Origin: Arctopsyche grandis
Taxonomy: Eukaryota; Arthropoda; Insecta; Trichoptera; Hydropsychidae
Reading direction: 5' to 3'
Assembly (NCBI RefSeq): GCF_051622035.1
Contig: NC_135366.1
Span: 8,401,001 to 8,465,000, forward strand
DNA: 64,000 nt
Translations under genes and position numbers: made by a program
The notes under the pieces: generated by a model
Told to the model about the DNA's origin: nothing
Database searches by the model: none
Seen by the model: only the letters and a program-made list of their open reading frames with translations
Part shown: positions 30,693 through 54,341 of the stretch, piece after piece
How the letters are laid out: each line of letters begins with the position of its first letter
Numbering within the stretch: the stretch's first letter is position 1

Positions 30693-31499
30693 TTATTGTA
30701 TTTTCACGTTTTTTTTTAGTATTAATGGTATCGTTTCACCGAGGATACGACTGCAATAAGACATTTCTTTTTCAGAAAAAAATGCAAACATCAACTCTAT
30801 CTGTCGATACAAAAATAAGGTTCCTAGTACTTTGCGTGCATAAAAGTCCAAATTTATGTCTGCTATTTTATATTCACCCTATCGAAACATTGAATATTAA
30901 GACAGTGTTAAAATATATGTAATGATATGTACATAGTAAAGTCTACCTTTTTAACTAAACAGTCCATCTTTACATGATATACTTGACGTAATACGGGTCC
31001 CAGGATAATGTCAGCGCAGGGGTTTGTCGTTGTCCTATTGAAAATAGGATTGATTTTTCCATCGTGTATTATGGTAGTAAGATACATTCCCTGAAATTTG
31101 TTTAGTGTGTGAGAACTTTGATGAAACAGAATAAAACATCAAACATTGACAACATATAAAAACATTTTTACATACCTTTCTCACGTAGTGATCTCTTTTT
31201 ATAATAATATGTCCACCCAATATGTTTTGCTTATTTTCGTTTACTGTATTATGCAATTCATATTCAGTAAAAGAAATGTTTACCGGTGTTGATAAGTTAC
31301 AGTTTTCAACTACATTAATATGTATAGCATACGGGCCCTAAAAATTTTACCATCATATATATTTAGACAGAGACTAAATTCAATATAACGCCATATGTTT
31401 ATATGCTATTTCAAAAATTATTACATAATCTCGCGATTTGCAATTAACTGACGAATAAAACATCGACCACACCATAAAATAAATAATACAACAGCACAT
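30693..31499 (-). CDS. Secreted MD-2/DUF1091-like family protein, copy A
   Basis: Four exons on the minus strand: 31499-31425, 31337-31176, 31090-30947 and 30878-30693, of 75, 162, 144 and 186 bp, all phase 0, giving 188 aa. Exon 1 is a signal peptide (MCCCIIYFMVWSMFYSSVNC). The mature part keeps Cys38, Cys104, Cys123 and Cys169. Blocks are GPYAIHIN, EYELHNTVNENKQNILGG, GKINPIF, NPCADIILGPVL, CLVKKGEYKIADINLDFYARK, then YRQIELMFAFF and SYC. The order C...C..GxYxI...LxF...YRxxLxFF...C resembles insect MD-2-like and DUF1091 secreted proteins, which I infer rather than see proved; the ligand is unknown. This copy is the most diverged and lies 207 bp after the Pgk stop, in opposite orientation. 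It has its own conserved upstream motif at 31567-31581. Confidence 0.82.
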
Positions 31500-31566
31500 T
31501 TTTGATGGTGACTGTAATGAAATCTAAATATGAATCCGATGAGAGCAATAAAATAAATTGATCGTT

Positions 31567-31581
31567 TTATCAGTAATCTGC
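31567..31581 (-). promoter_or_regulatory. Conserved upstream motif of copy A
   Basis: TTATCAGTAATCTGC, 68 bp upstream of the copy A ATG. On the gene strand it reads GCAGATTACTGATAA, which contains a GATA-factor-like TGATAA. It is identical in all six promoters of the family seen here. Confidence 0.55.
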
Positions 31582-31639
31582 TGGTTAACTATGCGAAACC
31601 ACTCGATTTAAATCAAAATTAATTTATTGTGCTTCAGGT

Positions 31640-33300
31640 TGGTTAAAAAAACTTGGGGATCATCCATTTATGTACATGTGTACAATATAAATTAAAAAAA
31701 ATCGGATGTGACCAACCCACAACTTTATCTATGTATGTAAGTATTTAAGGAATATGAAAAGTATAAAAAACAAAATTCGGTAATGAAACATACATACACG
31801 TTCACACATGCCGGCTATGAGAGCATTTTCGATACAAATTGAGCGCAATTGTAGGGAAACTTATATAGGCCAAATTTTTACTTTTGGTTGTTAGATTCTG
31901 TTCGAATTTTTTTATTACTTAAAATCATTATATTGAAGAGTATTCAGAGGTAAGGGGAGTCAAGTCGAGGTATAAGAAAATAATCATGTAGGTTTCAGAT
32001 ATTTAATAGATGCTCTTCTGGTGGTAGCCAGGTTCCCAATGAATCCTGAGTAGTAGTTTTTCTGATAGTTCTTTGGAGCAAGCTCCCACGCCTATCTATC
32101 TGTCGTGTTGTATGCGATCGGGCTCACGTTGCCCGTTTTATGATGGGTTCAGGTGGCTAGAGCACTCAGCAAATGCTAGTGCATTAACTGTGGGATGTTG
32201 TTAAGTGTTAGTATGGTCTGTTACAGTTTTAATTATAATTTTATGTCAGTAGTTGGATAGGGTTTATGATAAGTATTTACAACTTAATTTTATCTATCCT
32301 AGTTTAGCCTATACCCACCATCCGGACGTCGACGGGCCTTTGATTAGAGGCCCTCAGTGAGACTAAAAGGAGTTTGGTCTCACTGAGGATATTTAGAAGG
32401 GGATAGGCAATCTTGCCGAGAGACTTGAAGTAGTTTACGGCAAGTTTGTTTACGTGTTTGTCAATGTTTAGGTCATTGGAATCCTGAGACCAACCCGGCC
32501 GGCTTTTATACATGTTTTGTAAGCCGCGCGGGTTTGGTCGCTTAGTTGAGCTCGCTCACTGGTCGGTGAGCCGAGCCCTCCGATTGGTCGGTGAGTCGGG
32601 CTCTCCGACAAGACGATGAGTGCTGCGCGCTAATTGGACGGCGTGCACTGATTATGCTATCTTTACGCAACAAAATCAAGAAAATAGAAATAATATAAAA
32701 GGTCAAAATAAAATAATGAAATATCGTTTTTAAAAAATTACTACTTTCGGTTTACAAACTTTAGCCAAACCTTGTTTTCCCGCATAGATAATCTGTAAAC
32801 CGTATAATTAAGATTATACTGTATATTTGTACATATGTATATATTACATACATTACAAAATTATGTAGAGGATGTAATTATATTTAATGATTTTTAAAAA
32901 TTATAAATTCGTGTCATTAGCCAAAAAGGCATATTTAATTAAAGTTGTTTTTTTTTATTCTGCATGAAAATTATGATGAACTATTCTCGACGATAAGTTC
33001 CACTATACGTTCGATGAAATATGGATATGGTTTTTTGGGTTTTCTAAACTTATTGTATTCCAAATCTTTTTTGTGAATAAGAATATAATACAGGTATTAG
33101 ATACACCGAAATGTTATCGAAAACGATATGAATATAAAGAAAATCAAACAAGTTGCAATATAATTTTTGTCTTACCGAAATTCTATAATGAATGGAAATT
33201 TATGTTTGTCATGTATTGGAAGGTATTTTTTTTTACTTTATCTATGTACATAGAAACAATAGATGAAGTTTCGTGATCATGCAAAAATTCGAATTCGAGG
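31640..33300. repeat. Dispersed repeat (minus copy), interrupted by an unclassified 0.7-kb block
   Basis: 31660-31930 and 32660-33290 match the long spacer repeat also found at 42.8, 46.4 and 49.7-52.7 kb (TGTGACCAACCCAC, GATACAAATTGAGCGCAA, TTATCTATGTACATAG). Between them, about 31950-32660 is different: it holds GGTTCAGGTGGCTAGAGC, an inverted CTCAGTGAGACTAAAAGGAG repeat near 32350-32395 and GC-richer GGTCGGTGAGCCGAGCCC. I could not classify this insert. Confidence 0.5.
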
Positions 33301-33318
33301 TTTCGATTGATTCGAACT

Positions 33319-34894
33319 AGGGGTTCCAAAAAACCGCCCGAAAGAAAAAGCCGGTTTTCGGTTTTTTACAAATAAAAAGCCGGTTGATTGGCTTTCACTG
33401 ATTTTAGAAAATTAATATTTTTTTTAAGTTTAAAATTATAATATATGAAAAAAAATGTAAATATATTATATATTATATAATGCAAAAAAAATTAAATTAT
33501 AAATTAAATTGAATTATAAACATTATGAACTTTCATAAGATCATTATTATATATTATTATTACAAATAATACAATTTGTATTATATATAACAGCCGTAAA
33601 ATGGCAGATCCTAAATACGCACAAATAATTAAATGATTTACATAAGTTACTATCAAGAATATATGATTAAAAAAATAATGTGTAACCTCGCAGAAAAACT
33701 ATATGTAATTGTGGAATTGTGAATAGATATTAACAGTGAGCGGCGCTAGGATGCGCTAGCTCGAAATAAAGGGGTTTCTTTTGTCAATTTCTATTGTTAG
33801 GAACCCGTTTTAGCGCATTTTAGCGCCTATCTCTGGATATTAAGAACTGCTGAGATTCGCCCTGAGGTGCGCTCAATATTTAAGTATTTCCATCTTTCAA
33901 AAGTTGTATTTACGCATCTGTTTTAGCTTAAAAATCCAAAAGCTTAACAAATCGTTGCAAATTTCGAAAACAAATTCATTAAACGGCATATCACAAACAT
34001 TTTAAAACCATAATAAAAGTAGGTATGTGGCCTCAATATTTAAAGGGCTTCCAATTCCTTCGAAGAAAAATAAATTATATGTATTATCCGGAAATTCCCA
34101 CGCATTTTGTATAAATATTTGAGTTTACGAATACTTTTTTGTTATTGTCAAGTAAAAGGTTTTGCGATGTTTTATATACCTGAAGTTGGGTAGGTCATTG
34201 AAAATACATACTTTCAATAATATTGTTACGTACGCCGTGGATTGAGCGAATTGTACTTAGACCAACGGATATCTGTTATCGGATTAACTAAATGCATGCA
34301 CTTACTTCCAAAGATTATATCTGGACTCTAAGTGCATTTAGGCTAAACAATTACCGATATTAGTTATTTCTCAGAATCGGTACGGGGAGACCCAATATCG
34401 GGGAAATACATATCCGAATACGTGACTATACAACAGGTAAACAGATTAGGCGTCCTGAGAGATCTACCCTTTATAAGGCGGTACGTAGGCGATATAATGC
34501 ATTCTGGACTTAGCAGTGACACTGCGTGTATCTCCTTAATCATCAATAAATGCTGTGAAACGACTGTTGGCCTTTTACTTGGATCCTCCACCCACCCCTA
34601 CGCAACAATATGTTATTGGTTTATGAACTGTAACATTAATAAATCTCAAAGAAACCGCTAAGTGCTCTAACTTTTTTTTTTGTTCAAAGAAATATACGCC
34701 TATTACCTAAGAGAATTTAGATATACACATTTATTTTGATCTTTCATAGAAATTTGAAATTCATAATTGTTAATGTTGAGGAAAAAACATTAATTAAGCG
34801 GGTTTATCGAGCCAATAAGTCGGTTTTCGGTTTATTGAAAAATGGTCAAAAAGCCGGCTTTTCGGTTTCGCTTTAAACCGACTTGGAAGCCCTG
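33319..34894. mobile_element. hAT-like element with nested LTR-like block
   Basis: Left end AGGGGTTCCAAAAAACCGCC and right end (reversed) AGGGCTTCCAAGTCGGTTT are inverted and rich in AAGCCGGTTTTCGG units. A related fragment is at 54745-54790. Inside, 34229-34632 starts TGTTACGTACGCCG and ends CTGTAACA, with a possible poly-A signal AATAAA, and could be a solo LTR; no clear target duplication was found for either. Confidence 0.5.
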
Positions 34895-35345
34895 TACTCG
34901 ACCTCAAAGACGATCACTCATCACGTTTTCATGATTGTTTGTTGTTTCACGTTTTCATGATTTCAAAAATGTGTCTATTATTGTGTGGGATTTTTTGAAC
35001 ACCGTCAGTTCTATCGAACTGAAACTTGGTATCGGTTACTGAAATGCTTATCGATACGAAACGATAGTTGACCGGAAATGGTACCTCGCCTTATAGGTCT
35101 CCTCCTTTTTTTTGGATTCAATTATCTCTCAAACCGCTCAACGGATCAGACTGAAATTTCAAACATGTAATAGAAATTATACATTTTATATATTCATATT
35201 TTAAAAATATTTTACCTCAACCGGAAGTAGTACTTTAACTCTTGAGCAGCGATTCCCAAGGCAGGGTAGACGCAATGGATTTGTTTTGTTAATAAATTTT
35301 GTAGAAAAAAAGTTATTTGCGGAGTCACAATTATAATATGCTTAA
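34895..35345 (+). repeat. Dispersed spacer repeat with ACCGGAAGT
   Basis: A partial plus copy of the long spacer repeat: GATCACTCATCACGTTTTCA, GAACTGAAACTTGGTATCGG, then CTCAACCGGAAGTAGTACTT with an exact ACCGGAAGT at 35220-35228. Confidence 0.6.
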
Positions 35346-35473
35346 AGTTTAATATATTTATCTACTATTTCATCGTACTTCTATTACTGATAAATGGTTT
35401 TACTATGCAATATCATTATCATTATTCTAAAATATTATATAATTCTAGGTTGATTGAATGAAGATCAGAAATT

Positions 35474-37888
35474 TTATTGGTGTTTCACTTTTTTTTTGGA
35501 TATTAATGGTACCGTTTCACCAAGGAAACGATTGCAATAAGTCAATCCCTTGTCTGAAAAAAATGCTAATATTAATTCCATCTGACGATAGAAAAAAGAG
35601 CCCCCAAGTACTTTGCGTGCAAAGAAGTCCAAATTTAAGTCTGCTATTTTGTATTCACCCTAAAAAAACACAAAAATGTTTTAATGAAGTTAAAATATTA
35701 TACAGTGTGTATGTAATACAATTTACCTTTTTGATGAAGCAATCAACGCTAATGCGATATACTTGCTTTAGTACAGGTCCTAGAACAATGTCAGTACAAG
35801 GGTTTGATGTTGTCTTATTGAAAATACGATTGATTTTACCATCGTGAATCATATTAGTAACATACATTCCCTGAAATTTGTTTAGTATACGAGAACTTTG
35901 ATTAAACAGAATATTGTCATGTATGGTTCATAAATACACATACAACTACACCAGCAGTCACATAAAACGGAACGCTTGTGAATTTTACGACTTCGAGGCC
36001 ATTAAAGGATTATCCCTTTATGTGTAGGGTTTTTAACGACCAAATATTCTAAATATGATTGTTTTCTAAGATTTGAGTTGAGTTTAGTGTGGGTTTTCGA
36101 GGAGAAAGCATCAAATTCGAATTTTAACACGTCAACATGAAAAAACGAGCTCAGTTATCATTGCAGAAGAGTGTAAAAATCGCGACATTGGCGAGTTCAG
36201 GATTTTCCTTTCGGTCAATTTCCAAGAAAATGGGATGTTCTATATCAACTGTTTCGAGAATACTGGAAAAAAAAAAAAGAATCTGGAAGTTTTGATCGTA
36301 AGAAGGGGACCGGACTGAAAAGATGCACATCGGAGAGGCAAGACCGTGTAATAACCAGATTATCTTTACAGCAGTGATTCAAAACTGCTGTAGAAATAAG
36401 AACAGATGTATCTTCACAATTTTCCATGGAAATCAGCGACTCAACAGTAAGAAGGCGACTCAGAGAAGCTGGACTGCACGGTCGGAAAGCTGCAAAAAAA
36501 CCACTACTAACCAAGAGAATGAAAAACAATCGATTGGAATGGGCGAAAGCACATGAAAATTGGAGTCCATCAGATTGGCAACGAGTGATACTTTCCGACG
36601 AATCAAAGTTTAACCTCTATAGTCCTGATGGTTTTCCGTATGTCCGAAGGAAAGTTGGCGAAAGGTATAATGAAAATTGTACCCTTAAAACTTTTACGCA
36701 TCCTCCAAGTCAAATGGTCTGGGGATGCTTTTCGTACCATAACATTGTACAATTGGAGTTTCTACAAGGTGCCATCGATGGAAAAAAATATTAAAAAATT
36801 TTAGAAGAAAGCTTTGTCCCATCGATGGAAAACCACCTTTCATATTCCGATGATATAATTTTTCAAGATGACTCTGCCCCTTGTCATCGAGCTAAATTGG
36901 TGAGTATTCATTTTATTTGATAGCATTGAATATAAATTATAAAATTTCAATCAAAAAACTGAATTTTTTTTTTACTTTTTTTTAGGTTCGGGACTATTTA
37001 CAAGAAATGGGTGTAAAGACACTACCATGGCCTGGCAATAATCCCGATTTAAATCCAATCGAAAATTTATGGATGGGTATCAAGTACAGGATAAGGAAGA
37101 ACAATGTTACTACTCTTAAATCGTTGAAAGAAATAATAGAAAATATATGGTACGAAGACTTCCCAATCGAAAATTTAAAAACTTTAGTAGATTCCATGCC
37201 AAACCGAATAAAAGAAGTTATAAAATCGAAAGGAGCCGCTACAAAATATTAATTTCTTTTTTATAAGTTGTAAATAATAATATGTGACTGTAATAAAATT
37301 AAAAATGTATATGTATAGTGTTATTTTCATTTCAAATTTCATTTAACCGTGAAGTCAACGCACGGTCGTAAAATCTGCCCTCCATTAAATTTCTCCCCAA
37401 CTCATTTTTGTCACCTTTTTTTTCACGTTTGGTATTACACGAATGCACTATGGTACAACCTATCATTTAAATGACTTTCGGTTTTGGTTTTATATAAGAT
37501 TACCGAAATTTCACGCAAAAACATGTTTCGCTTAAGCGTTCCGTTTTATGTGACTGCTGCTGTATATTTCCAAACCTTTTTTGAGTATTGACCTCTTTTT
37601 ACAATAACTTTACCACCGAATATGTTTTGGTTGTTTTCATTAATCGTATTGTGCAATTCATATTCAAAAAGGTTGTTTTCGGGTAATGATAAGTTACATT
37701 TTTCAATTTTAGTAATATGTATAGCATACGGACCCTGAAAATTTTACCATAATATATTACGACACAGATCACTACGTTTAAAAAAGCACTATATATTTAA
37801 TTATAATTATTACATAATCTCGCGACTTGCAACTAATTGGCGAATACAATATCGACCATACAATCAAATAAATAATACAACAGGACAT
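35474..37888 (-). CDS. Secreted MD-2/DUF1091-like family protein, copy B
   Basis: Exons 37888-37814, 37734-37576, 35870-35727 and 35659-35474 (75, 159, 144, 186 bp) give an uninterrupted 187-aa protein. The signal peptide is MSCCIIYLIVWSILYSPISC. The mature chain keeps the four Cys, GPYAIHITK, GGKVIVKRGQYSKK, GKINRIFN, NPCTDIVLGPVLKQVYRIS, CFIKKGEYKIADLNLDFFAR and YRQMELILAFF. Exon 2 lacks two codons compared with copies D, F and G. Intron 2 swelled from about 90 bp to 1.7 kb by a Tc1-like insertion on the opposite strand, which splicing could remove. Intron 2's donor is GTTTGG, shared with most copies (GTATGT in A). Function is inferred only at family level. Confidence 0.82.
35949..37562 (+). 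mobile_element. Tc1-like transposon in intron 2 of copy B
   Basis: Inverted ends of about 29 bp with one mismatch (inner part CAGTCACATAAAACGGAACG), flanked by TA at 35947-35948 and 37563-37564. The plus-strand transposase starts at 36137 (MKKRAQLSLQKSVKIA), then a frameshift in an A-run near 36264-36275, an in-frame TGA near 36376 and a TAA near 36791 break it. Catalytic parts remain: ILSDESKFNL, FQDDSAPCH and PGNNPDLNPIENLW (DD34E). A GT-AG intron of 86 bp lies at 36900-36985, at the same codon as in the Tc1-like element at 10.9 kb. Copy D preserves the empty site. Confidence 0.9.
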
Positions 37889-37960
37889 CTTTAAAAGCTG
37901 TGTATAATGAAATCCAAATATGTATCCGATGGGAGCAATGAAATAAATTGGAAGTTAGGT

Positions 37961-37975
37961 TTATCAGTAATCTGC
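37961..37975 (-). promoter_or_regulatory. Conserved upstream motif of copy B
   Basis: TTATCAGTAATCTGC, 73 bp upstream of the copy B ATG, in a larger conserved flank (ATCCGATGGGAGCAAT on plus). Confidence 0.55.
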
Positions 37976-38299
37976 CAGATAGCTATGCAAAACCATTTGA
38001 TTTAATTGATATAAATCAAAATTAAATTATAGTGATTAGGAATAGATCAGTGGTTGCATAATTGATCCTATAAAAAATTACCATGGCTGCACCATTTTTA
38101 CTTTATTTTCTTTCTTGTGAAATAATACTTATATTTATTACTCAAAAAATTGGGTCAATCACTTCAATCAAGGGGTTAAGTTTTACAATTTCGGAAACAA
38201 AATATTCCTCTTATTCAATATGTTTAGTAATAATGGAAGAATTTATTTTTTTATGTTTATATTTGATAAGTTTTCCGCTATATTTACTTTATCAATGTA

Positions 38300-38585
38300 C
38301 GTAGTAACAATAGATGAAGTTTTATGATAATGCGAAAATTCGATCTCAAGATTTTGACTGCTTCGAAGTCAGAATCGATTACTGATCACGATTTCATGAT
38401 CTTGGATAAATGTGTGTGTCTGTGTTTTTTAGGGATTTTTTGAACACCATTAGTCCTGTCGAACTAAAACTTAGTAACGGTTACTAAAATACTTATCGAT
38501 ATAACGTATTATTTTTTCAAATTTTTAAGTTGACTGGAAATGGTACCTCCCCTTATGGGTGTCCTTAATACCAAATAATTGAAGG
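38300..38585 (+). repeat. Dispersed spacer repeat, partial
   Basis: GTAGTAACAATAGATGAAGT through AATGGTACCTCCCCTTATGG, a partial copy of the long spacer repeat, running directly into the remnant of exon 4 of copy C. Confidence 0.55.
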
Positions 38586-38782
38586 AAGATCAGGACTTTT
38601 ATTGGTGTTGCTTTTTTATATTAATGGTACCCGTTTCACCAAGTATACGATTGAAATAAGGCCATCCCTTTTCTGAAAAAAATGTGAATCATAGTAGTAA
38701 CGTACAATGTACATATGTACATTCCCTGAAATTTGCTTAGTATATGAGAACTTTGATTAAATATAATGTTGACGGGTATGGA

Positions 38783-40142
38783 TAGTGTTGTAAAATTCTC
38801 GGTAAAAATCTTTTGGAGATTTTTCGAGAATATTCTTTTTTAGAGCATCTGGAGGGCTTTTATACTATTCAGTTGCGATTTAAAAAAAATGGATAAATTC
38901 ATGTGAACAGTAAGATGACGGAAGACACGAATAAAATTAATTAACTAATGCAAAACCCTAATTAATAATAATTTTTAACCTTTTGCATTTCATATGTATA
39001 GAGAGAGGGTAAGCAAATGTGACTTTTGTTACAAATGTGACTACAAAATTTGTGTTAAAAAATTTCGTCGAAAAGTATGAAAGTAAATTGATTAATTCAT
39101 GTGAACGGTAAAGATGAGGGTAGTAGTAGTCTTCCTTGTAGGAAGAGCGATGGTAACTCTGACGATGTGAGGATTATTGAAGTGTTTTTATATTCTGTAA
39201 ATGCTAACAGGAGGGGAATTTTCAGAGGTTGTTGAGTTCAGGGAGTGATGATTTTAACAAAGGTCAAATTCTTTCTCGAAACTTAACGGCTTTGCCGCCT
39301 CCCCCAAGTATATTAAATTTAATGGAGCGTGAATACGGGAAAATTTTTATGATCGTGTGTGTCAAGTTTAAAAGAATGATTAAATCAGTAAGTTGGAACA
39401 ATTTCATTGGAATATATTCACCAAAGCAATAAAAATATGTATAATTTATTGCTTCCAGAGTTAATAAGCATTGTAATCCTGTGAGAAGTAGTGAGCGTAT
39501 GTTAAAATGGGGTTTGGTGCATCCGCTCTAAAATCGCCAGATTAACAGAACGGCAGCTTTAAACGTAATTCTCGTTTTCTCGAATGATAGATTGCACATC
39601 AGATGACGAGTAACCTTTCGATTTGCACAGATGCAATTATTAAAATTGAGTTGGATCTTTCTGGCGAGTTTAATAAGGCAAGATTCGGAATTTATCGAAT
39701 CTTCCCTTATTAAACTCGCCTGAAAGATCCAACTCAATTTTAATAATTACCATTTTAATAATTGCATCTGTGCACATCGAAAGGTTAACCGTCATCTGAT
39801 GTGCAATCTATCATTCGAGAAGAGGAGAATTGCATTTAAAGCAGCCGTCCGTCAATCTGTCGTTCAATTTGTCTGGCGATTTTAGAGCGGATGCACCGCA
39901 TCCGTTTAAATGACGAAATGACACATTCAGTGTCGTCAGAATGAAAAAATGTCATTCAAAATGCTCTCAGACATTCTAGAAAGTGCTATTACTCCTATAA
40001 AGTTCTGAAAATATCCTAGAATCATCTCAAAAGCTAATAAACTATCTAGAGATGTTTTATAACCAAGAAAATTATCAAAATTTCTCGGCGAATAATCTTT
40101 TGGAGAATATTCTCTCGATAATATTCTCGACTTACAACACTA
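38783..40142. mobile_element. hAT-like element in copy C
   Basis: Ends TAGTGTTGTAA and TTACAACACTA are inverted; flanks GGTATGGA (38775-38782) and GGTATGGT (40143-40150) are a 7-of-8 duplication of a sequence found once in sister copies. TTCTCG/CGAGAA-rich subterminal repeats continue inward. No transposase. A second palindromic element is nested inside. Confidence 0.72.
39516..39897. mobile_element. Nested 382-bp palindrome
   Basis: Two arms of about 190 bp, from GGTGCATCCGCTCTAAAATC to its reverse complement, with few mismatches and almost no loop (turn near 39690-39700). The text is shared with the interior of the Pgk-intron element (29153-29527). Confidence 0.75.
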
Positions 40143-40639
40143 GGTATGGTACAGAACTACACACTCAAATATTTTTCAAACCTTTTTCGCGTATTGATAT
40201 CTTTTTATAACAGTTTTACCACCAAATATAATATGTTTTGGTTATTTTCGTTAATCGTATTGTGCAATTCATATTCATTAAAAGAAAGGTTGTTTTCGGG
40301 TAATGATAAGTTACATTTTTCAATTTTATTAATATGTATAGCATACGGATACTGAAAAGTTTACCATTATATATTACGACACCGATCACTACGTATAAAA
40401 TAGCACTATATGTTTATTTATAAACATATAATGCTATTAAATTCAATATAATACTTAATTCAATACAACGCCATATGTTTATATGCTATTTTAAAATTAT
40501 TACATAATTTCGCGACTTGCAACTAATTGGCGAATATAACATCGACCATACAAGCAAATAAATAATCACATTTTTAAAATCTATGTATATTGAAATCCAA
40601 ATATGTATACGATGGAAGCAATAAAATAAAGTGATCGTT

Positions 40640-40974: not shown

Positions 40975-42600
40975 GTTGACGGGCTGAAAACCAGACTGGT
41001 ACAAGTGACATTTAAAAAAAAGCTGGTTTAAAGACATGTCTAGCATGACGACCTCGGTAGGGAACTTCTCCTGTAAAAGGGTGGCCCGCTGCGAGCCATT
41101 CATTCTATGAATGATTTCCTTGGATCTACATAAGTAGAGTGACGCTACCTGATCGTTCCAACCAGGAACCACCTTAGATCTCTTGCCATTATTTGGATGC
41201 GAAGAAAACGATGTCGAAGCAGCATTTCTCAAAACACCTACAATTGAATGATAGAGGTCCTATGCTCAGTATCTTTGCATTTTCTGAAATTGCAGTTTTG
41301 AAAAGGTTTATCAAAGACAATACGATCCAAAAAGTTGATTATTTCTAGCGAATATGTAATTATGTCAGAAGGGTTGCGTGACGATAATTATGAGATGGTC
41401 TCGAACGATTCAGACCATTCCCAGCAGTTATAACTAGAGGTAGGATAGTCACAGTGCTATCCATTGTTCGGCAAACCTTTAACAATGCATTTACAACCTT
41501 TGAACAATACACGGCCCCCTCAGGCTCCGGTGACTAGTTATAACAAAAAGCGGGCGATGATCTGACCATCCTTAAAATCTTGAATGGATCCTAAAATTCC
41601 TTCAGATGTGATACAGTGATCCAACCAGCGTGAGGAGCCGTGTGCGTCACGTCAACATATGTAAATGTATTAGATGGAAGACACGCATAATTTTGAATCC
41701 TCAAATGATTTTCTTCACAAAATGATAGTAGTTCGTTCCAAACTAAAGAACCAGAATGAGCGTTAAAATCACCCACGACAATAAAATTCGAGCGACTATG
41801 TTCTTCAATAGCGGCGTTAAGAGGGCTGTACACCCGAAACCTTAATTTTGTTACCGTTCCTTTCTTCGATATATATATTGAGTGTATGAATATATTGAGT
41901 GAATGCGACAATATATATCAATATTGAGTGAATGCGATAGTTGCGCTTCGACCAGATAAAACGTATTTTAAATTGACAAAATCGAGGTTTCGTATTCTAC
42001 TATTTTCTCCTCCAAAACTGGACCAATTTTTAAAAAAATTTCATCATCGGTATGAGAAAGATACTTTCTGTGCATCTATCGGCGTATTTTTTTAAAAACC
42101 GACCGTTAAATAAGCACGCTGGACTCGTTTCGTGGGTGTAAAAAAGAGGCGATTTTATAGATTTTTGGCGGCTCCTAGCTCCTTTAAAAAATAATTAATC
42201 AAAAAAATAAAACGATAGATGCACCCCAATGGTGGATATCCATAACATATTAAAAAATAATTTCTCTAGTGGCATAATTGAGGAAGGGAGAAGTATAGTA
42301 CGTTTGTATGGACAAGGTGCAGCTGTCCAGCCCTCTTAACAATGCCCAAGAAAGTAGTAAAATCTTCAAAATTGTCTAGTTTCGCCGTCGGCATATAGAA
42401 TAAATAATTAACAACTCAATATCACCTTGCTAAAGTTTGATGCAAAGTAATCTCGGATTATGAAAGTCAATTTGGGAGGCTGCTAAAGATTTTTTATATA
42501 ACACCACTTCCAACTACAGTTCCATAACCGCTGTCAACTGCAGACTTAACAGTACCTTCAAATGATGGATGGAATCTACTCAAGTAAACAGTTACACATT
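40975..42600 (-). mobile_element. Non-LTR retrotransposon fragment with endonuclease domain
   Basis: Minus-strand pieces of a CR1/Jockey-like ORF2: from 42600 down, a degraded stretch; then (across a later MITE) NAAIEEHSRSNFIVVGDFNAHSG, the apurinic-type endonuclease GDFNAH core at 41911-41591; and, further down, VVPGWNDQVASL at 41232-41000, normally lying between endonuclease and reverse transcriptase. The frame is broken and the reverse transcriptase is absent. A block at 41430-41540 is the dispersed element also seen at 9.7 kb, inserted here. Confidence 0.65.
41821..42335. mobile_element. piggyBac-type MITE (TTAA target)
   Basis: Ends GAGGGCTGTACA and, reversed, GAGGGCTGGACA are inverted, flanked on both sides by TTAA (41817-41820, 42336-42339). 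Removing the unit with one TTAA rejoins the retrotransposon endonuclease frame (VNAAIEEH). No coding content. Confidence 0.7.
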
Positions 42601-43326: not shown

Positions 43327-44124
43327 TTAGTGTTTCACTTTTTTTTTTAATTTCAATGGTACCATTTCACCAAGCATACGGCTGCAATAAGACAATCCCT
43401 TTTCCGAAAAAAATGCCAATATTAATTCCATCTTACGATAGAAAAAAGTACCCCCAAGAACTTTGCGTGCAAATAAGTCCAAATTTATGTCTGCTATTTT
43501 GTATTCACCCTAACAAAACAAAAATATATTTTAATGAAGTTAAAATATTATAGAGTGTTTAATACAATTTACCTTCGTGATAAAGCAATCTATGCTAATG
43601 CGAAATATTTTCTTTAGTACAGCTCCTAGAACAATGTCAGCACAAGGGTTTGATGTTGTCTTATTGAAAATAGGATTGATTTTACCATCGTGAATCATAT
43701 TAGTAACATACATTCCCTGAAATTTGTTTAGTATACGAGAACTTTGATTAAACAGAATATTGTCATGTATGGTTCATAAATACACATACAACTATATTTC
43801 CAAACCTTTTTTGAGTATTGACCTCTTTTTACAATAACTTTACCACCCAATATGTTTTGGTTGTTTTCATTAATCGTATTGTACAATTCATATTCATTAA
43901 GAAAAATGCTATTTTCGGGTAATGATAAGTTACATTTTTCAATTTTATTAATATGTATAGCATACGGACCCTGAAAATTTTACCATAATATATTACGACA
44001 CAGATCACTACGTTTAAAATAGCACTATATGTTTAATTATAATTATTACATAATCTCGCGGCTTGCAACTAATTGGCGAATATATCATCGACCATACAAT
44101 AAAATAAATAATATAACAGCACAT
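43327..44124 (-). CDS. Secreted MD-2/DUF1091-like family protein, copy D
   Basis: Exons 44124-44050, 43970-43806, 43716-43573 and 43509-43327 (75, 165, 144, 183 bp) give 188 aa without interruption. The signal peptide is MCCYIIYFIVWSMIYSPISC. The chain has GPYAIHINK, NEYELYNTINENNQNILGG, GKINPIFN, NPCADIVLGAVLKK, CFITKGEYKIADINLDLFAR and YRKMELILAFF with SYC. The last codon pair changed from CAA-TAA to a single TAA, so the protein is one residue shorter at the C-terminus than its sisters. All introns are short (72-90 bp apart from small differences), so this is the least disturbed member. Its intron 2 keeps the empty target site of the Tc1 insertion seen in copy B. Confidence 0.83.
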
Positions 44125-44810: not shown

Positions 44811-44819
44811 GGAGATCAG

Positions 44820-44968
44820 AACGTTTATTGGTGTTGCACTTTTTTTTATATTAATGTTACCGTTTCACCAAGGATACGATTGCAATAAGGCAATCCCTTC
44901 TCTGAAAAAAATGCGAATATTAATTCCATCTGACGATAGAAAAAAGAGCCCCTAAGTACTTTGCGTGC
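44820..44968 (-). pseudogene. Secreted MD-2/DUF1091-like family, copy E (exon 4 fragment)
   Basis: Only the last two thirds of exon 4 remain: minus-strand GSFFYRQMELIFAFFSEKGL, PYCNRILGETVTLI, then a premature TAA. The fragment is cut off exactly where a palindrome with TTTTCCGGGAACCG begins. No exon 1-3 is nearby. Confidence 0.75.
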
Positions 44969-44982
44969 TTTTCCGGGAACCG

Positions 44983-45425: not shown

Positions 45426-45429
45426 TCAG

Positions 45430-46820
45430 CTTGATACGCTCAGGGGTGTGGACAGAGTAGTGGGCACAACATTTTTGACCTTTCTAAGAGGAAAAAATTC
45501 CACTTCCGATTTATAATTATTTTTTTTATTTTCATCTCATTGATACAAGAATTAAATTTGAATTTTTCGTGACGAGCGCACAGGTTTAAGGGGTCGAAAA
45601 AAATAGTGGAAGAAAAATCAAACAAGAGTAAACTGCCACTTTCCGTTGACGGATGCTTACCAAATTTTACAAATAACTTACATAGTATTAAGCTTAAACC
45701 TCTAGATATGAAATTTCAGTTCAATAAACCAAAAGGTTTCTCATGAAAACATAAACCTCGATTCTCTAGAGTAAAAGTACTACTTCCGGTTCAGATAAAA
45801 ATATTTAAAAAATATAAGGTTATAAAAAATATTATTTCTATTACATGTAAAAAATTTTCAGTCCGATTCAGTAGACGGTTTGGGAGATAATTGAATTCAA
45901 AAACTTAAAAAAAGAGGATACCTATAAGGGGAGGTACCATTTCCGGTCAACTTAAAAATTTACGTCGTGTCGATTAAAATTTCAGTATCCGATACTAAGT
46001 TTCAGTTCGATAGGACTAACGGTGTTTAAAAAATCCCCAAAATACACAGACACACACACACATACACATTTTTTATATATCATGAAAACGTGACCAGTGA
46101 TCGATTCTGAGTTCGAATCATTCAAAATATCGAGTTCGAATTTTCGCACGATCACAAAACTTTATCAATTGTTACTACGTACATAGATAAAGTAAAAAAA
46201 TAAAGTGATGTGGGTATTTCAATTAAAATCGTTGCTAATTAATAAAGATATATTTCATATTAATTTATATACATAAATACAATACAGTGAAACAAATGAA
46301 ATTAATTAAATACAACAATAAACAATAACACATAAAATGAAAAATTAAATAAATAAAAGATATGTATACACACGTTGAAAAATTCGGATGTGACCAACCC
46401 ATGACTTTATCTATGTATTTGAGGAATATAAGAAGGTCACAAAAAAAATTCAATAATTAAACATACAAGTTCAAAAACGCGTTATGGGAGCGTTTTCGAT
46501 ACAAATTGAGCGCAAATGTATGGAAAATTGCACAAGACAAAAGTTCCACTTCCGGTTGTCAGATTTTGTTCAATTCTTTTCAGTATTGTACACAATAAAA
46601 TTAGAGAAGATTAAAATAATTTAAAAGGTCAACATAAAATAATGAAATATTGTTTAAAAAAAAAAATACTACTTCCGGTTTACGAATTCTGGTCAAAAAA
46701 TTATCAGCTCTATCTAAGTTACTACATAAAGAATACAAATATAAATTTTCAATATTTATCTACTATTTCGTTATACTTCTATTACTGATAAATGGTTTTA
46801 TTATACAATATCATTATCAT
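45430..46820 (-). repeat. Long dispersed spacer repeat, two minus units
   Basis: 45430-46200 and 46370-46820 carry the repeat in reverse orientation: phrases such as GGTACCATTTCCGGTCAACT, CGATTCTCTAGAGTAAAAGT and exact ACTTCCGGT at 45782-45790, 46548-46556 and 46671-46679. Several other near matches (ACTTCCGAT, CTTTCCGTTG) stand at comparable places. No coding frame. Confidence 0.7.
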
Positions 46821-46868
46821 TATTCTAAAATATTACATAATAGGTTGATTGAATGAAGATCAGAACTT

Positions 46869-47818
46869 TTATTGGTGTTTTACTTTTTTTTTTAATATCA
46901 ATGGTACCGATTCACTTAGGATACGGTTGCAATAACACAATCCGTTTTCCGAAAAAAAAGCTAATATTAAATCCGTCTGACGATAGAAAAAAGAGCCTCC
47001 AAGTACTTTGCGTGCAAAGAAGTCCAAATTTATGTCTGTTATTTTGTATTCACCCTTACAAAACAAAAATATATTTTAATGAAGTTTAAATACTATAGTG
47101 TTTAATATAATTTCGTTTCGTTTTCGTTCTCCAGCTATTGCGTGGTAATACGTCATGCCCGTTGTTGCTGGAACAGTTGGGACTTTATGTCCCTAATAAT
47201 TATGTGCGTGGTAGACATCATCATTTAATGGTTGTACCTGCTGCTCGCACAGTTCTTTTTCGAATGGCTCCTATTCCAAGAGCTATTCGACTTCTCAATG
47301 AAATCGTTGCTGCTGTCCCTGAATGTGATATTTTCCACCTTGGGGAGCGTAGATTGTCGGATATTATCTTAACATATTTATCTGGTAACCTGCGCTCATC
47401 ATTACTTTCTTAATTTGAATGTGATGAATGAGTGGAATCTTAATCTACTCTCTTCCATTTGGGCCTCGCTGTGATTTTATTTTTTATTCATATTTTGTTT
47501 TATTTTATTTTATTTTTTCTTTCTCTTTTGTACATTTTTATATACTATTTTAATTTTGATCAGTGTAAACAAAGAATGGGATTTATGGATTTTATTTTTA
47601 ATTTTTACACTTTTGTTATTTTTTTTTTCTCTCTGAATGATGTATTATTTTCCTTTTGTTACTTTTTTTGTAATTTTATTTTACCATGTTTTCTGCTTTT
47701 GCTTTTTTCCTTTATTTACAGTTTACTTGTTTTTATATCATGTTTTTATATATTTTTCAAATGTAGGCCATTGTGGCGCATTAGGTTCTTCCTGTAATGC
47801 CACAATGGTCCAAAACTA

Positions 47819-47858
<40 letters not shown>

Positions 47859-48813
47859 ATTTACCTTCTTGATAAAGCATTCTTTGCTAATGCGAAATAC
47901 TTGCTTTAGTATAGCTCCTAGAACAATGTCAGCACAAGGATTTGTTGTTGTCTTATTGAAAATAGGATTGATTTTACCATTGTGAATCATAGTAGTAACA
48001 TACATTCCCTGAAATTTATTTAGTATACGAGAACTTTAATAGAACAGAATGTTTTCGGGTATGGTACATAGCTACACACACATATATTTTTCCAAACCTT
48101 TTTCACGTATTGATCTCTTTTTACAATAACTTTACCACCGAATATGTTTTGGTTGTTTTCGTTAATCGTATTGTGCAATTCATATTCATTAAAATCAAGG
48201 TTGTTTGCGGGCAATGATAAGTTACATTTTTCAATTTTATTAATATGTATAGCATACGGACCCTGAAAATTTTACCATAATATATTACGACATCGATCAC
48301 TCAGTTTAAATAACACTATATGTTTAAACGGGTCTACGTGACGAGCCGGAATGTTAAATTACCGAAAACGCAAATACCGGAAGGCAAAGATCGAAAATCG
48401 AAAGATCTTAAGTGGAAAGATCAAAAAGAAAGGGTGCATGGTAAACGGTACATACTCACTTAATTTGCGCGAGCGGGATACAACAGGAACAAGAGGAACA
48501 AGCTTTTCCTCCCGTATTCTGCGCGCGCACATTAATACGGGTGGAAAAGCCTGTTCCTCTTGTTCCTGTTGTATCCTGCTCGCGCAAATTAAGTGAGTAT
48601 GTACCGTTTAAAATGCACCCTTTTTTTATCTTTCGACTTAAGATCTTTCGATTTTCGATATTTGCCTTCCGATATTTGCGTTTTCGCTAATTTAACATTC
48701 CGGCTCGTCGCGGAGACCGGTTTAAACATAATTATTACGTAATTTTGGGATTTGCAACTAATTGGCGAATATAATATCGACCATACAATCAAATAAATAA
48801 TACAACAGGACAT
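46869..48813 (-). CDS. Secreted MD-2/DUF1091-like family protein, copy F
   Basis: Exons 48813-48739, 48262-48098, 48008-47865 and 47054-46869 (75, 165, 144, 186 bp) give an uninterrupted 189-aa protein. The signal peptide is MSCCIIYLIVWSILYSPISC. The chain has GPYAIHINK, NEYELHNTINENNQNIFGG, VKRDQYVKK, GKINPIFNK, NPCADIVLGAILKQVFRIS, CFIKKGEYKITDINLDFFAR, YRQTDLILAFF and CYC. Two transposable insertions enlarged its introns: a foldback in intron 1 and a truncated non-LTR element in intron 3, right next to the donor of exon 3. The exons remain open in spite of these. Confidence 0.82.
47114..47860 (+). mobile_element. 5'-truncated non-LTR retrotransposon (Jockey/CR1-like) in intron 3 of copy F
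   Basis: Codes the last part of an ORF2: LLEQLGLYVPNNYVRGRHHH, then LMVVPAARTVLFRMAPIPRA and IRLLNEI, to a stop at 47411-47413. A T-rich 3'UTR follows, then a hairpin (CCATTGTGGC ... GCCACAATGG) at about 47768-47810 and an (AAAT)n tail. The same 3' end occurs at 10.5 and 19.7 kb. Flanks show a short AT-rich duplication (ATAATTT / ATAAATTT). Confidence 0.75.
48328..48721. mobile_element. 394-bp foldback element (TTAA-flanked) in intron 1 of copy F
   Basis: A near-perfect palindrome: ends ACGGGTCTACGTGACGAGCC and (reversed) ACCGGTCTCCGCGACGAGCC, with TTAA on both sides (48324-48327, 48722-48725). The centre holds GCGCGAGCGGGATACA in inverted pairs, the same motif as in the 10.3-kb MITE. Confidence 0.72.
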
Positions 48814-48885
48814 CTTTGAAAGCTGTGTATAATGAAATCCAAATATGTATCCGATGGGAGCAATAACATAAATTGGAAGGTAGGT

Positions 48886-48900
48886 TTATCAGTAATCTGC
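48886..48900 (-). promoter_or_regulatory. Conserved upstream motif of copy F
   Basis: TTATCAGTAATCTGC, 73 bp upstream of the copy F ATG. Confidence 0.55.
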
Positions 48901-49099
48901 CAGATAACTATGCAAACCAATTTGATTTAATTTATATAAATCAAAATTAAACTATAGTGATTAAGAATAGATCAGTTGTTGCAATATTGGCGTCAATCAA
49001 GTATGTATGTATATGTACTATAGAAATTTACCATGGCTGTACCAAATTTTTCTTCATTGTGAAATACCACTAACATATTTTTTTTTTTATTTTACATAC

Positions 49100-49526
49100 A
49101 TATATACCAGGAAGGCCTTACAGGTAAATCCCAATGCGCCTTCCTGGCCAATTACAATTACAAAATGCAGCATTTTTATTACAAGTCGTTGAATTACGAG
49201 ACACCGAAAAACTCGCAAATTAACGAGACATCTATGAATTGTACATAAATTTTATTGTACATTAATCATACATCAAATAGTGGTGACATAGTAGGTAGGA
49301 AGGATTTTTAGTCAGTTTTTTTTCCGGGAACCGTTTCAACAATGAAATCAGAGAAAATTGGCAAACTCTGATAGGAAACGATCAACCTGGAGTCACAAAT
49401 CCAGGTCTGACCAACAGCATACTCTGAAAAATACATTTTTTTCATTCGAAGCCCGGGCCAGGTATCGAACCCCGGTGCCTCTCGACGCTAAGCAGAAGCT
49501 TAACGATCGAGCTATGCTGCTGGTTA
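49100..49526 (-). mobile_element. tRNA-derived SINE
   Basis: On the minus strand the head, from about 49525, reads AACCAGCAGCATAGCTCGAT and later GGGGTTCGATACC, i.e. an A-box-like and a good B-box (GGTTCGANNCC) of an RNA polymerase III promoter. The body continues for about 400 bp past CCAGGTTGATCGTTTCC and GGTTCCCGGAAAAAAAAC. The head is not a clean tRNA cloverleaf, so it is a SINE rather than a gene. Confidence 0.55.
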
Positions 49527-49709
49527 TATATATATTACACAAAAAATTGTTTATTACACAAAAAATTGGGGTCAATCACTTCAATCAAGGGGTTAAGTTT
49601 TACAATTTCAGAAAGAAAATATTCCTCTTATTCAATATGTTTAGTAATAATGGAAGAATTTTTTTTATGTTTATATTTGATAAGTTTTCCGCTATATTTT
49701 TACTTTATC

Positions 49710-52700
49710 CATGTACATACGTAGTAACAATAGATGAAGTTTTGTGATCATGCAAAAATTCGAACTCGAGATTTTGACTGTTTCGAACTCAGAATCGATC
49801 ACTGATCATGTTTTCATCTTGAATAAGTGTGTGTTTCTGTGTATTTTGGGGATTTTTTGAACACCGTTAGTCCTATCAGACTGAAACTTAGTATCATTTG
49901 CCGACATTCTTATCGATACGTTATTTTTTTCAATTTTTTAAGTTTACTGGAAATGGTACCTCCCTTTACAGGTGTCCTCTCTTTTTACTAAGGCTTCCAG
50001 TGCCGTGAATCCCAGTGCTGAAACCAGCCTGAATACCGGGATTACGGTGCTGGCAGAAATTTCTTTAAAAACATTATTTTTACAAAAATAATATGGAAAA
50101 CAACATTATATAATGAACAATGGTGGGATGAGCAATGACAGTCATACTCCATTTGTTTGCCACCCTTTTCGGCGCCGGCTTGCCGTTTCCACGAAATGGT
50201 ATGAACGGCCTGTATTGTGTCGCAGATATTGTGCTCAACCGCAATGATATTTCAAGCATATTTTAACTGATTCGAATTCAGTATCGACCACTGATCACGT
50301 TTTCATGATCTAGAAAAAAACTGTCTGTTTCTGTGTGAGTGTCTGTATGTTTATTGTTAGTCAGTGTCTTTTGGGGATTTTTTGAACACTGTTCGTCCTA
50401 TTGAACTGAAACTTAGTATTGGTTTCTGAAATTTTTATCGATACACCGTAATTTTTTTCAAATTATTAAGTTGACCGGAAATGGTACCTCCCCTTATAGG
50501 TGTCCTCTTTCTTTTTAAGTTTTTGAATTAAATTATCTCCCAAACCACTCATCAAATCGGACTGAAATTTCTTACTTGTAATAGAAATTATTAATATTAT
50601 ACCCCAATATTTTTTCCTAAATCGAAAGTAGTACTTTTAATTTAGAGAATCAAGGTTTTTTATGTGTTTCTAAGAATTATTTTAATTTATTGAACTGAAA
50701 TTTTACCAAGCTATGTATAAAAATTGGTAAGAATCCGTCGGCCAGAAGTGGCAGTGTACCCTTGTTCAATTTTTTCTTCCACTATTTTTTTCGACCCCTT
50801 TAACATGTGTGTGCTCTTCACGTAAAAATTCAAGTATAATTGTTGTATAAATGTGATGAAAAAAAAAATCACTAAATATAATAAACCGAAAGCGGGATTT
50901 TTCCTCTTAGAAAATAAAAATGTTGTGACAACGATTATTTCCAGGCCCTGAACATATTTAGCTGAAATTTTATATTTGTATTATTTTTGTACTAACATAG
51001 AGTTGATAAGGTTTTGGTCGGAATTCGTTAGCCGGAAGTAGAACTTTAGTCTTCTGTAAGTTTTCCTACATTTGTGTTCAATTTGTATTGAAAATGCTCA
51101 TTGCCGGTATGTGCGAACGTGTATGTACATACATACATATGTTCGATTATCGAATTTTGTTTTTTTATCTCCCTTATATTCCTCAAATACATAGATAAAG
51201 TCGTAGGTTGGTCACATCCGAATTTTTTATATTAGGTGGATTTTTTCGATGAATAATTTCTACACGGTACAAACTATTTGTAAAAAACGAATCAATGAAT
51301 CAAAGCGATGTTTTTTACTTTATTTAATTACATTTTCGAATGAGTTTTATTTAATCTTAGAAATTTATGGATGCGAACCTAAAATTTAAAGAATGTAGCC
51401 AAACTTCCAAAATTAGTACGCCAATAATGGGAGTATTTTTTGCGTGAAACATCGTAAGAGTTTGCAAAATGCAATTGAACGTTTTTGAAATATGAAAACA
51501 TGCAATTGAACATTTTTTTCATATATATTTGAAATCCCGGTGCTAGCACCGGGATCCCGGGATCGGAAATTCCCAGCACCGCAATCCCGGTGCTGAAGTA
51601 ACCTTCCGGAATTGGAAGCACTATTTTTTACTAACCTCTTTTACGTTTCACTTACGATTATTAAGTTTTTGAATCCAATTATCTCCCAAACCGCTAATTG
51701 AATCAGACTGAAATTTTTTTACATGTAATAGAAATTATAAATTTTATACCCTAATATTTTTTGAATACATACACCTCAACCGGATTTAGTACTTTTAACC
51801 TAGAGAATCGAGGTTTTTTATTTTTTATTACAGAAACTTTTTGATTTATTCAATTGGAATTACATATCTAGAAGTTCAAGCTTAATACCAAGATATGTAT
51901 AAAATTTAGTAAGCATCCGTCAACCGGAAGTGGCAGTTTACTTTTTTTCGATTTTTCTTCCACTATTTTTTTCAACCCTTTAAACATGTGTGTTCTTCAT
52001 GAAAAAATTAAAGTATAATTCGTTTATCAATGTGATGAAAATAAAAAAAATCACTGCACATGCGATGTTTTCCTCAGAAAGTTTAAAAATGTTGTGACCA
52101 CGATTCTGTCCACACCCCTGAACATAACAAGTCGAAAATTTATATTTGTATTCTTTATGTACAAACTTACGTAAATCTGATAAGGTTTTGATCAGAATTG
52201 TAAACCGGAAGTAGTATTTTTTTTTAAACATATTTCATTATTTTATTTTGACCTTTTATATATTTTTATTTTCTTGATATGTATATAATATTTATAGTGA
52301 TTTTAAGTAATAAAAAAATTTCAAACAAAATCAGACAACCAGAAGTAGAACTTGCCTTGTGTAAGTTTCCCTACATTTGCGCTCAATTTGTATCGAAAAT
52401 GCTTTCATAACCAGTATTTTTTTTATTTTTAAATGCTTTTTATTATTACAAAATTATGTTCACAATACATCTTATATATATATTTTAATAGCTACTGATG
52501 TACTGATCATTTTCTATTTTTCAATTTAATTTAATTTGGTTAGTAATCAGAGTATTATATTATTCTAATGTTAATCTACAGCATAATAGGAAAAGAGCTC
52601 AAAAACCTATTTCATAACCGGTATGTGTGAACGTGTATGTATGTTTAATTATCGAATTTTGTTTTGTGACCTTCTTATATTCCTCAAATACATAATTAAG

Positions 52701-52720
52701 TCGACTAGGTCTAACATGGG
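49710..52720 (+). repeat. Long dispersed spacer repeat, two plus units with nested insertion
   Basis: 49710-49985 continues at about 51625-52720; the material between (49990-51622) has hAT-like ends (AGGCTTCCAGTGCCG at left, and reversed AGTGCTTCCAATTCCGG at right) and itself contains a further copy (50290-51240). Within each unit the motif CCGGAAGT/CCGGAAATG recurs every 100-250 bp, exact ACCGGAAGT being at 51922-51930 and 52204-52212. No open frame of note. Confidence 0.6.
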
Positions 52721-53475
52721 TTGAAAAATACCTATATTTGGTTAATATCTATATGTTGGTTGCTATTTTTTTAAATAATTGAATAAGAAAGTATAGTACA
52801 ACAGTTCGATGATTTCACATGGACACAAATAATGCGTGGATCGAAAAATAATAGACATTTAGAATTAAATAAATATATGTATTTTTAAGTAGAATAAAAT
52901 TAAATATCAATATCAGTTAGCCGGACGTCCTGACGCGAGGCCCCTCTTGTAGTCCGGGCCCTGGAACTTTACTTCAGTCCCCGCCTCTCTCTACGGCCTT
53001 GGGTACTACCACTAATATCTTCATACTAGTGTTGGGCCCGTTGATTTCAACGGGTGGTTTCGAAAATAAATTGAAACTCGACTAAAAATAAAGTTAAAGA
53101 TATTGAATCGACTGGTTTCGGAAAGAAATTGATGCACGAATTAGAAATTTCGAAGTGAATACGAATTACGAATTACGTTTTGTGCATCGCCGACGCCCCG
53201 ACGCCTTTGCCCCGAGCGCCCCCGATGCCTTCGGCACCCCGGGGCCGGTGTAAAAAATAAATAAATAATTAAAAAAAAAATCTTGGTAATGCATCAGTAA
53301 TCTACAGCATCAAAATCTTGGTAATGCCTTTGAAACAGATATTTAAAAAAAAAATCTTATATGTACATACGTCATTCTGACTTTATTTAACTGGAGTATT
53401 ATTATACAATATAATTATCATTATTCTTCAATATTATATAATTCTAGGACGGTGATTGAAGGAAGATCATAAATT
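52721..53475. other. Mixed intergenic sequence before copy G
   Basis: AT-rich, with a GC-rich patch at 52918-53010 (GCCGGACGTCCTGACGCGAG) and another at 53165-53245 (GCCCCGACGCCTTTGCCCCG) followed by (AAAT)n. The second looks like the 3' end of an unidentified retroelement. No gene. Confidence 0.4.
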
Positions 53476-54341
53476 TTATTGGTGTTTTACTTCTTTTTTT
53501 GATATTTTTGGTATTGTTTCAAAAATAACATGAGTGCAATAAGACAATCCGTGTTCCGAAAAAAATGCTAATATTAATTCCATCTGACGATAGAAAAAAG
53601 AGCCCCCAAGTACTTTGTGTGCATAGAAGTCCAAATTCATGTCTGCTATTTTGTATTCACCCTAATAAAACAAAAAAATGTTTTAATGAAGTTAAAATAT
53701 TATAGAATGTGTATGTAATACAATTTACCTTTTTGATAAAGCAATCATCGCTAATGCGATATACTTGCTTTAGTACAGGTCCTAGAACAATGTCAGCACA
53801 AGGATTTGTTGTTGTCTTATTGAAAATAGGATTGATTTTACCATTGTGAATCATAGAAGTAACGTACATTCCCTGAAATTTGTTTAGTATACGAAAACAT
53901 TAATAAAGCAGAATGTTGTTGGGTATGGTATATAACTACACACACAAATATTTTTCCAAACCCTTTTCACGTATTGGTCTTTTTTTATAATAATTTTACC
54001 ACCTAATATGTTTTGGTTTTTTTCATTAATCGGATTGTGCAATTCATATTCATTAAGAGAAAGGTTATTTTCGGGTAACGATAAGTTACATTTTTCAATT
54101 TTATTAATATGTATAGCATACGGACCCTGAAAATTTTACCATAATATTATATATTACAACACCGATCACTAAGTTTAAAATAGCACTATATGTTTATTTC
54201 TAAACATATAGTGCTATTAAATTCAATATAACACCATATGTTTATATGCTATTTTAAAATTATTACATAATTTCGCGACTTGCAACTAATTGGCGAATAT
54301 AACATCGACCATACAATCAAACAAATAATACAACAGCACAT
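53476..54341 (-). CDS. Secreted MD-2/DUF1091-like family protein, copy G
   Basis: Exons 54341-54267, 54126-53962, 53872-53729 and 53661-53476 (75, 165, 144, 186 bp) give an uninterrupted 189-aa protein. The signal peptide is MCCCIICLIVWSMLYSPISC. The chain has GPYAIHINK, NEYELHNPINEKNQNILGG, GKINPIFNK, NPCADIVLGPVLKQVYRIS, CFIKKGEYKIADMNLDFYAH, YRQMELILAFF and SYC, ending FETIPKISKKEVKHQ; this tail differs clearly from sister copies. Intron 1 has a short inverted repeat (CACTATATGTTTA / TAAACATATAGTG near 54185-54212). No transposon interrupts it. It is the last family member seen before the repeat-rich region. Confidence 0.83.

Follow-up and report, generated by a model that had tools for sequence, protein, structure and literature searches.

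The 64,000-nt window of the Arctopsyche grandis genome analyzed here (C12:8401001-8465000) contains an array in which a four-exon gene is repeated seven times, always on the minus strand; five of the copies are intact, two are broken, and the array spans window positions 30693 to 54341. On balance we favor reading the array as a young tandem branch of a probably secreted family that is sister to DUF1091, with products that would be ML-like carriers or cofactors for hydrophobic ligands and with evolution by birth and death. This reading is based on the anatomy of the genes, constraint on their older branch, the extent of the family in the genome, and homology to DUF1091.

Gene models in the array

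The seven copies were rebuilt from raw sequence (Table 1). The first-pass annotation had described the exon layout, the minus-strand orientation, the split into five intact and two broken copies, and proteins of 187–189 aa; on rebuilding, its coordinates proved exact to the base. It had also stated that ORF callers miss these genes, and indeed the ORF listing, with its 150-aa minimum, has no frame in the region. Exon 1 (75 bp) and exon 3 (144 bp) have the same length in A, B, D, F and G; for these copies in that order, exon 2 measures 162, 159, 165, 165 and 165 bp, and exon 4 measures 186, 186, 183, 186 and 186 bp. All of these lengths are multiples of three and all exons of the five intact copies are in phase 0. 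Each of the 15 introns, three per intact gene, begins with GT and ends with AG. As the donor following exon 2, only A has the canonical GTATGT; a weaker, non-consensus GTTTGG is shared by B, D, F and G, whereas copy H, a sixth close copy found on another contig (see below), has GTTTTT. Exon 2 therefore has the least certain border.

Table 1. Features of the window, in window coordinates; array genes are listed in transcriptional direction, with exons 1 to 4 in order.
Feature	Position	Strand	Exons	GTTTGG exon 2 donor	Description
Copy A	31499..30693	-	31499-31425, 31337-31176, 31090-30947, 30878-30693		intact, 188 aa
Copy B	37888..35474	-	37888-37814, 37734-37576, 35870-35727, 35659-35474	37576	intact, 187 aa
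Copy C	about 40570..38605	-			broken: second codon of exon 1 is a stop, exon 2 damaged, exons 3-4 in fragments; bounds approximate
Copy D	44124..43327	-	44124-44050, 43970-43806, 43716-43573, 43509-43327	43806	intact, 188 aa
Copy E	about 44970..44820	-			broken: exon 4 remnant; bounds approximate
Copy F	48813..46869	-	48813-48739, 48262-48098, 48008-47865, 47054-46869	48098	intact, 189 aa
Copy G	54341..53476	-	54341-54267, 54126-53962, 53872-53729, 53661-53476	53962	intact, 189 aa
Insert in copy B intron 2	35947-37564				~1.6 kb, between inverted repeats
Insert in copy F intron 1	48319-48730				foldback
D9/D18 segment	34968-35111				no recognized exons
D9/D18 segment	38413-38573				no recognized exons
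D9/D18 segment	44654-44799				no recognized exons
D9/D18 segment	49830-49986				no recognized exons
D9/D18 segment	50355-50514				no recognized exons
Open reading frame	41594-41917	-			between copies C and D
GMC oxidoreductase gene	2202-3482	+			Pfam GMC_oxred_N and _C
GMC oxidoreductase gene	8415-9635	+			Pfam GMC_oxred_N and _C
Synaptojanin-like gene	60522-63662	-			one long open frame (Syja_N, Exo_endo_phos2, DUF1866)

The neighborhood of the array includes a plus-strand cluster of GMC oxidoreductase genes (C12:8.277-8.411 Mb) that ends about 21 kb before it. Relatives of these oxidoreductases form a second cluster at C8:26.90-26.92 Mb, and others occur singly elsewhere.

Growth and decay of the array

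Broken copy C lies upstream of B, and broken copy E upstream of D. Both pairs are joined through the same sequence, which suggests that the duplicated unit was a pseudogene plus a gene (C+B, E+D). B matches D at 94.8% over 706 bp, from upstream through exon 2. Insertions have occurred within genes. Intron 2 of copy B is 1705 bp long, and its insert, flanked by 31-nt inverted repeats that are 97% complementary, looks like a terminal-inverted-repeat element. Copy F has two enlarged introns, intron 1 of 476 bp and intron 3 of 810 bp; the foldback insert in the former has inverted repeats of 109 and 94 nt, 93–94% complementary. A segment belonging to families D9 and D18 is present five times. The open reading frame between C and D resembles, by its reading, the endonuclease part of a non-LTR retrotransposon.

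Copies in this family would arise by tandem duplication, including that of pseudogene-plus-gene units, with one close copy placed elsewhere, and would decay by mutation and insertion. The array would then be a young tandem branch of a large family with fast turnover, evolving by birth and death.

Coding constraint

Among the five intact copies and copy H, the sites variable at codon positions 1, 2 and 3 number 52, 42 and 78 (chi-square p = 0.0024 versus equal). Copy A is the most divergent, with 67–72% protein identity to the other five (B, D, F, G, H). Ka/Ks was 0.38–0.44 for A versus those five, 0.51–0.64 for H versus B, D, F and G, and 0.48–1.00 among B, D, F and G. The introns of A were 20–41% different from those of the copies compared, and Ka to A was 0.16–0.19. 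The bias toward synonymous change that the first-pass annotation had expected between copies was present in all comparisons except that of D with G, where Ka/Ks was 1.00. Judged from these substitution ratios, constraint is clear on the oldest branch, where A is one of the pair compared. It is weaker among B, D, F and G, the youngest copies, whose ratios would suit either drift or diversification.

These data bear on two alternatives. The first is that the exons are not genes at all, and that the likeness among copies is that of a duplicated non-coding segment. The flanks and introns were indeed duplicated too, and D versus G lacks synonymous bias. We nonetheless consider this extremely improbable: variable sites are biased by codon position, five copies retain intact phase-0 exons with GT-AG introns, and relatives with only 21–25% identity to A have the same layout (see below). 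The second alternative is that the array is mostly a graveyard, with one or two working copies and the rest drifting duplicates. The two broken copies of seven, the intron inserts in B and F and the Ka/Ks values among B, D, F and G all point in this direction, but five of the seven copies keep full frames and all splice sites, and Ka/Ks is lower in comparisons with A; we rate a graveyard as unlikely.

A dispersed copy and a larger family

We searched the 475.7-Mb, 189-contig assembly from which the window comes. (TTAGG-type repeats were noted at the start of three of the four contigs looked at.) Querying with copy A yielded copy H, an intact gene at C1:25937245-25938047 with the same four exons and a 189-aa product. 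Its protein is 84% identical to B and to F and 72% identical to A, so that H was probably derived from the array after A had split off. Homology between H and the window starts abruptly about 590 bp upstream of the H ATG, inside the exonless D9/D18 segment, and ends about 23 bp past the H stop. No target-site repeat of 6–10 bases was found around H in the short stretches searched.

Querying with copy A also produced weak matches on C8, C1, C3, C10 and elsewhere. Relatives that are 21–25% identical to A share its exon layout. Distant relatives with this layout and four cysteines are found on many contigs. With one of them as query, at least 112 exons matched with E no higher than 0.5. At least 76 of the 112 matches reached the terminal exon (query residue 153 or beyond; one of these is window copy G), 47 of the 76 with E up to 0.01, in 16 groups; one group belongs to the window itself and another is the small contig C166. 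Such match counts are lower bounds, yet some of the genes counted are broken and some matches may be due to chance. Half of the terminal-exon matches, 38 of 76, fall within C8:29.17-29.34 Mb, and 19 of those have E up to 0.01. Three matches on C166 mirror rows on C8, two with equal E-values and one with 0.0144 versus 0.0154, suggesting that part of the large array on C8 (C8:29.21-29.22 Mb) has an alternate copy in C166; both sets are counted in the 76. Exons of the window array were themselves matched by the distant relative (E 0.0055–0.26), so the link holds in both directions, albeit weakly. Among viral contigs, 55 pattern matches were found and none was confirmed as a relative.

The array had been proposed as a possible lineage-specific expansion. 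For the array together with H, recent local expansion fits well, but on the sequence comparisons the array is one small branch of a much larger family in the A. grandis genome.

Conserved anatomy of the proteins

An exon finder was run on 23 loci chosen from those fetched, representing 20 distinct genes since each of the pairs L038/L057, L060/L063 and L066/L073 is one gene. It accepts phase-0 exons only, and only where open frame, splice sites and similarity coincide; its references included exons of L030, L031, L033 and L038, which had first been found with the window exons. The chain of exons 2, 3 and 4 was recovered in 14 of the 20 genes and the pair of exons 3 and 4 in 19, while a convincing exon 1 was obtained for few of these relatives.

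We aligned 14 members (alignment A3), leaving out L034 (near L030), L070 (uncertain exon 2 end), relatives lacking a full exon 2–4 chain, and copies B, D, G and H. Six positions are invariant in A3: four cysteines and two glycines. Nearly invariant are a lysine, the asparagine of a sequon, and the proline preceding the second cysteine; the NxT/S sequon itself is present in 12 of the 14.

The first-pass annotation had described a signal peptide and four conserved mature cysteines. Four cysteines past residue 22 do align in all five intact copies and H (F has a fifth), and might form two disulfides. A further cysteine at residue 20 may fall within or just past the putative signal peptide. In each of the six close copies hydrophobicity peaks at the N-terminus, which is consistent with a signal peptide, and the mature part is basic (pI 9.0–9.5). 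The products are probably secreted.

Database searches

Profile searches against the Pfam ML and DUF1091 models had been suggested as a check; no member tested gave a convincing match to either. The PF06477 (DUF1091) model, at E up to 10, matched none of the five window proteins, three relatives including H, 11 members of an earlier alignment (A1) or 14 members of A3; these sets overlap, and HMMER filters drop most matches above about 0.1. The ML domain (PF02221) gave matches below cut-off in two of 14 members, the better at E 0.069 (13.9 bits versus a cut-off of 22.7, residues 38–175). Sequence search of the PDB found no relative (best E 0.48), and NCBIfam, a bacterial and archaeal library, nothing convincing. 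The family is thus Pfam-dark, that is, not recognized by the protein-family libraries searched.

Three other models turned up and were deemed chance matches. DUF2860, a model of 294 positions, matched three of 11 members (best E 0.0093, 15.6 bits versus a cut-off of 22.9) over about 52 residues. Lectin_C_term and RE_MamI each gave a single match, at E 0.088 and E 0.14 respectively.

Relation to DUF1091

Elsewhere in the same genome there are 14 exon-wise matches to DUF1091. Six of these served as a comparison set, L039 and L040 having passed the cut-off in the exon-wise search. With their exons joined, all six match DUF1091 (best E 7.1e-9). The exons found in these genes lie between AG and GT; their lengths are 75 bp (two genes), 153–165 bp (four genes) and, for the exon preceding the last, 153 bp.

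Profile comparison of A3 with the DUF1091 set read from DNA covered 180 columns and scored 94.6% (54.3 bits, P 6.9e-8); when the set was restricted to its exons 3 and 4, the score was 93.5% (P 2.3e-7). Every row of A1 and of A3 was traced, piece by piece, to the DNA. The 11-member A1 scored 56.4% (P 1.1e-4) against the same set. In 100 column shuffles of the DNA-read set the score was at most 17.1 bits, versus 54.3. A first DUF1091 set, with one residue differing, had given similar values: 93.8% for A3 (P 1.7e-7, 51.8 bits), where 200 shuffles never exceeded 19.7 bits and the reversed set scored 14.0, and 49.8% for A1 (P 1.7e-4, 34.0 bits), versus at most 19.5 bits in 200 shuffles. Because the DUF1091 exons had been picked by their likeness to the family, we ran a selection control in which the same exon picking was applied to 20 unrelated sequences, both strands of eight GMC and two ML loci; 60 random sets of six such pseudo-exon sequences gave at most 22.4 bits versus 54.3.

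Intron positions were compared as well. Between the family and the DUF1091 genes, borders 1/2 and 2/3 are in exact register and border 3/4 is one codon off, where border 1/2 rests on two DUF1091 genes and the DUF1091 exons came from the phase-0-only finder followed by an AG/GT check. Taken together, the profile match, its controls and the intron register indicate a distant sister family of DUF1091, without membership in PF06477. The DUF1091 link raised in the first-pass annotation therefore survives as kinship, through profile comparison, controls and shared intron positions, but not as membership, since no member matches the DUF1091 model itself.

DUF1091 is itself poorly understood. Drosophila has 91 genes with this domain, the most frequent one in a class of uncharacterized genes, according to the relevant passage of PMC8664486. 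In the papers that our literature search returned, passages mentioning DUF1091 report no experimental function for it; the search found nothing on DUF1091 as an insect gene family and no title on the array family. One study with a bearing on function is an AlphaFold2 screen, which in its cited part predicted that CG33703 and three paralogs pair with Piwi through the DUF1091 domain (PMC12014135). The paralogs are said there to be generally unexpressed under normal conditions (PMC12014135), which, like the predicted pairing, counts against a carrier role. By analogy, array proteins could act inside germ-line or stressed cells via Piwi rather than as secreted carriers. The prediction is in silico, however, and concerns DUF1091 and not the array family, and a hydrophobic N-terminus with conserved cysteines suits secretion; we regard a Piwi role as very improbable.

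Proposed function

We return to the reading of the array genes as secreted carriers or cofactors. Exon 1 of each gene supplies a hydrophobic N-terminus. The remaining exons, separated by two further phase-0 introns, encode a domain of roughly 165 aa that has four conserved cysteines and, in most cases, an NxT/S sequon that may be glycosylated. The product would be secreted and would fold as an ML/GM2-activator-like beta sandwich binding a hydrophobic ligand. Its role would be that of a carrier or receptor cofactor; contact chemosensation, as suggested for CheB, is the most plausible setting, and another secreted fluid the alternative. For these genes we infer transcription, secretion, glycosylation, fold, ligand, tissue and role from such features and from analogy.

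The MD-2/ML-type fold proposed in the first-pass annotation draws weak support from the two ML matches below cut-off, but when profiles were compared with those of two ML genes from this genome, nothing was found (11 columns aligned, P 0.28). We treat the ML link as a weakly supported lead only.

A carrier or receptor cofactor for hydrophobic ligands is proposed by analogy with CheB42a, NPC2 and the CheA/CheB genes. In the cited passages, CheB42a is capable of being secreted and associates with a DEG/ENaC channel, and it has been likened to the GM2 activator (PMC2827562). The same passages report that its secreted form left channel current unchanged, that the effect on current was ascribed to the membrane-bound form, and that the authors' own data did not support the GM2-activator hypothesis (PMC2827562). 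Arthropod NPC2 proteins are proposed, in the part cited, to be semiochemical carriers (PMC5810286). CheA/CheB genes are reported from the sensory tissues of mosquitoes and triatomine bugs (PMC5637092, PMC9801554, PMC5216343), and their number varies among tsetse species in a passage of a further study (PMC6721284).

The same family might instead act in a secreted fluid other than sensillum lymph, such as saliva, venom, or seminal or egg fluid. A hydrophobic N-terminus, a basic mature part and fast-changing tandem copies would all suit such a fluid, and no feature of the sequence fixes the tissue. The analogues named here, CheB and NPC2, are mostly discussed as chemosensory in the passages cited, and we consider another fluid a serious alternative of lower probability.

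A broader proposal, which we put forward as speculative and rather unlikely, is that the array belongs to a large insect superfamily of secreted ligand-binding proteins, whose numbers in this genome would equal those usual for odorant-binding proteins in insects and which would add a further class of soluble semiochemical or lipid carriers. Short exons and sequences that escape Pfam would explain why such a superfamily has gone unrecognized. If true, this would give a function to DUF1091, among the commonest Drosophila domains of unknown function. A Pfam-dark sister of DUF1091 with dozens of copies in another insect genome already widens the DUF1091 puzzle. Members of the family are clear candidates for tests of expression and ligand binding, and their fixed exon layout is a practical key to further members missed by ORF callers and profile searches.

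Comparison with known systems

The Drosophila CheB proteins resemble the array family in forming a small insect multigene family whose products can be secreted, according to the passages cited (PMC2827562); this likeness is by description only. ML-domain proteins such as NPC2 (PF02221) are of similar length and, by eye, share a Cys-x(3-4)-Gly-x-Tyr stretch and a late cysteine, whereas direct comparison with the two ML genes found nothing. DUF1091 differs in having a Cys-Pro at the end of exon 3 and an E-W-K block, both absent from the array family, while most members of the latter have an NxT/S...Pro-Cys block. DUF1091 genes and the array family are nonetheless alike in their signal-like first exon and phase-0 exons of near-equal length, in a cysteine in exon 3 and another near its end, in a profile match that is full-length, and in the strong multiplication of their genes.
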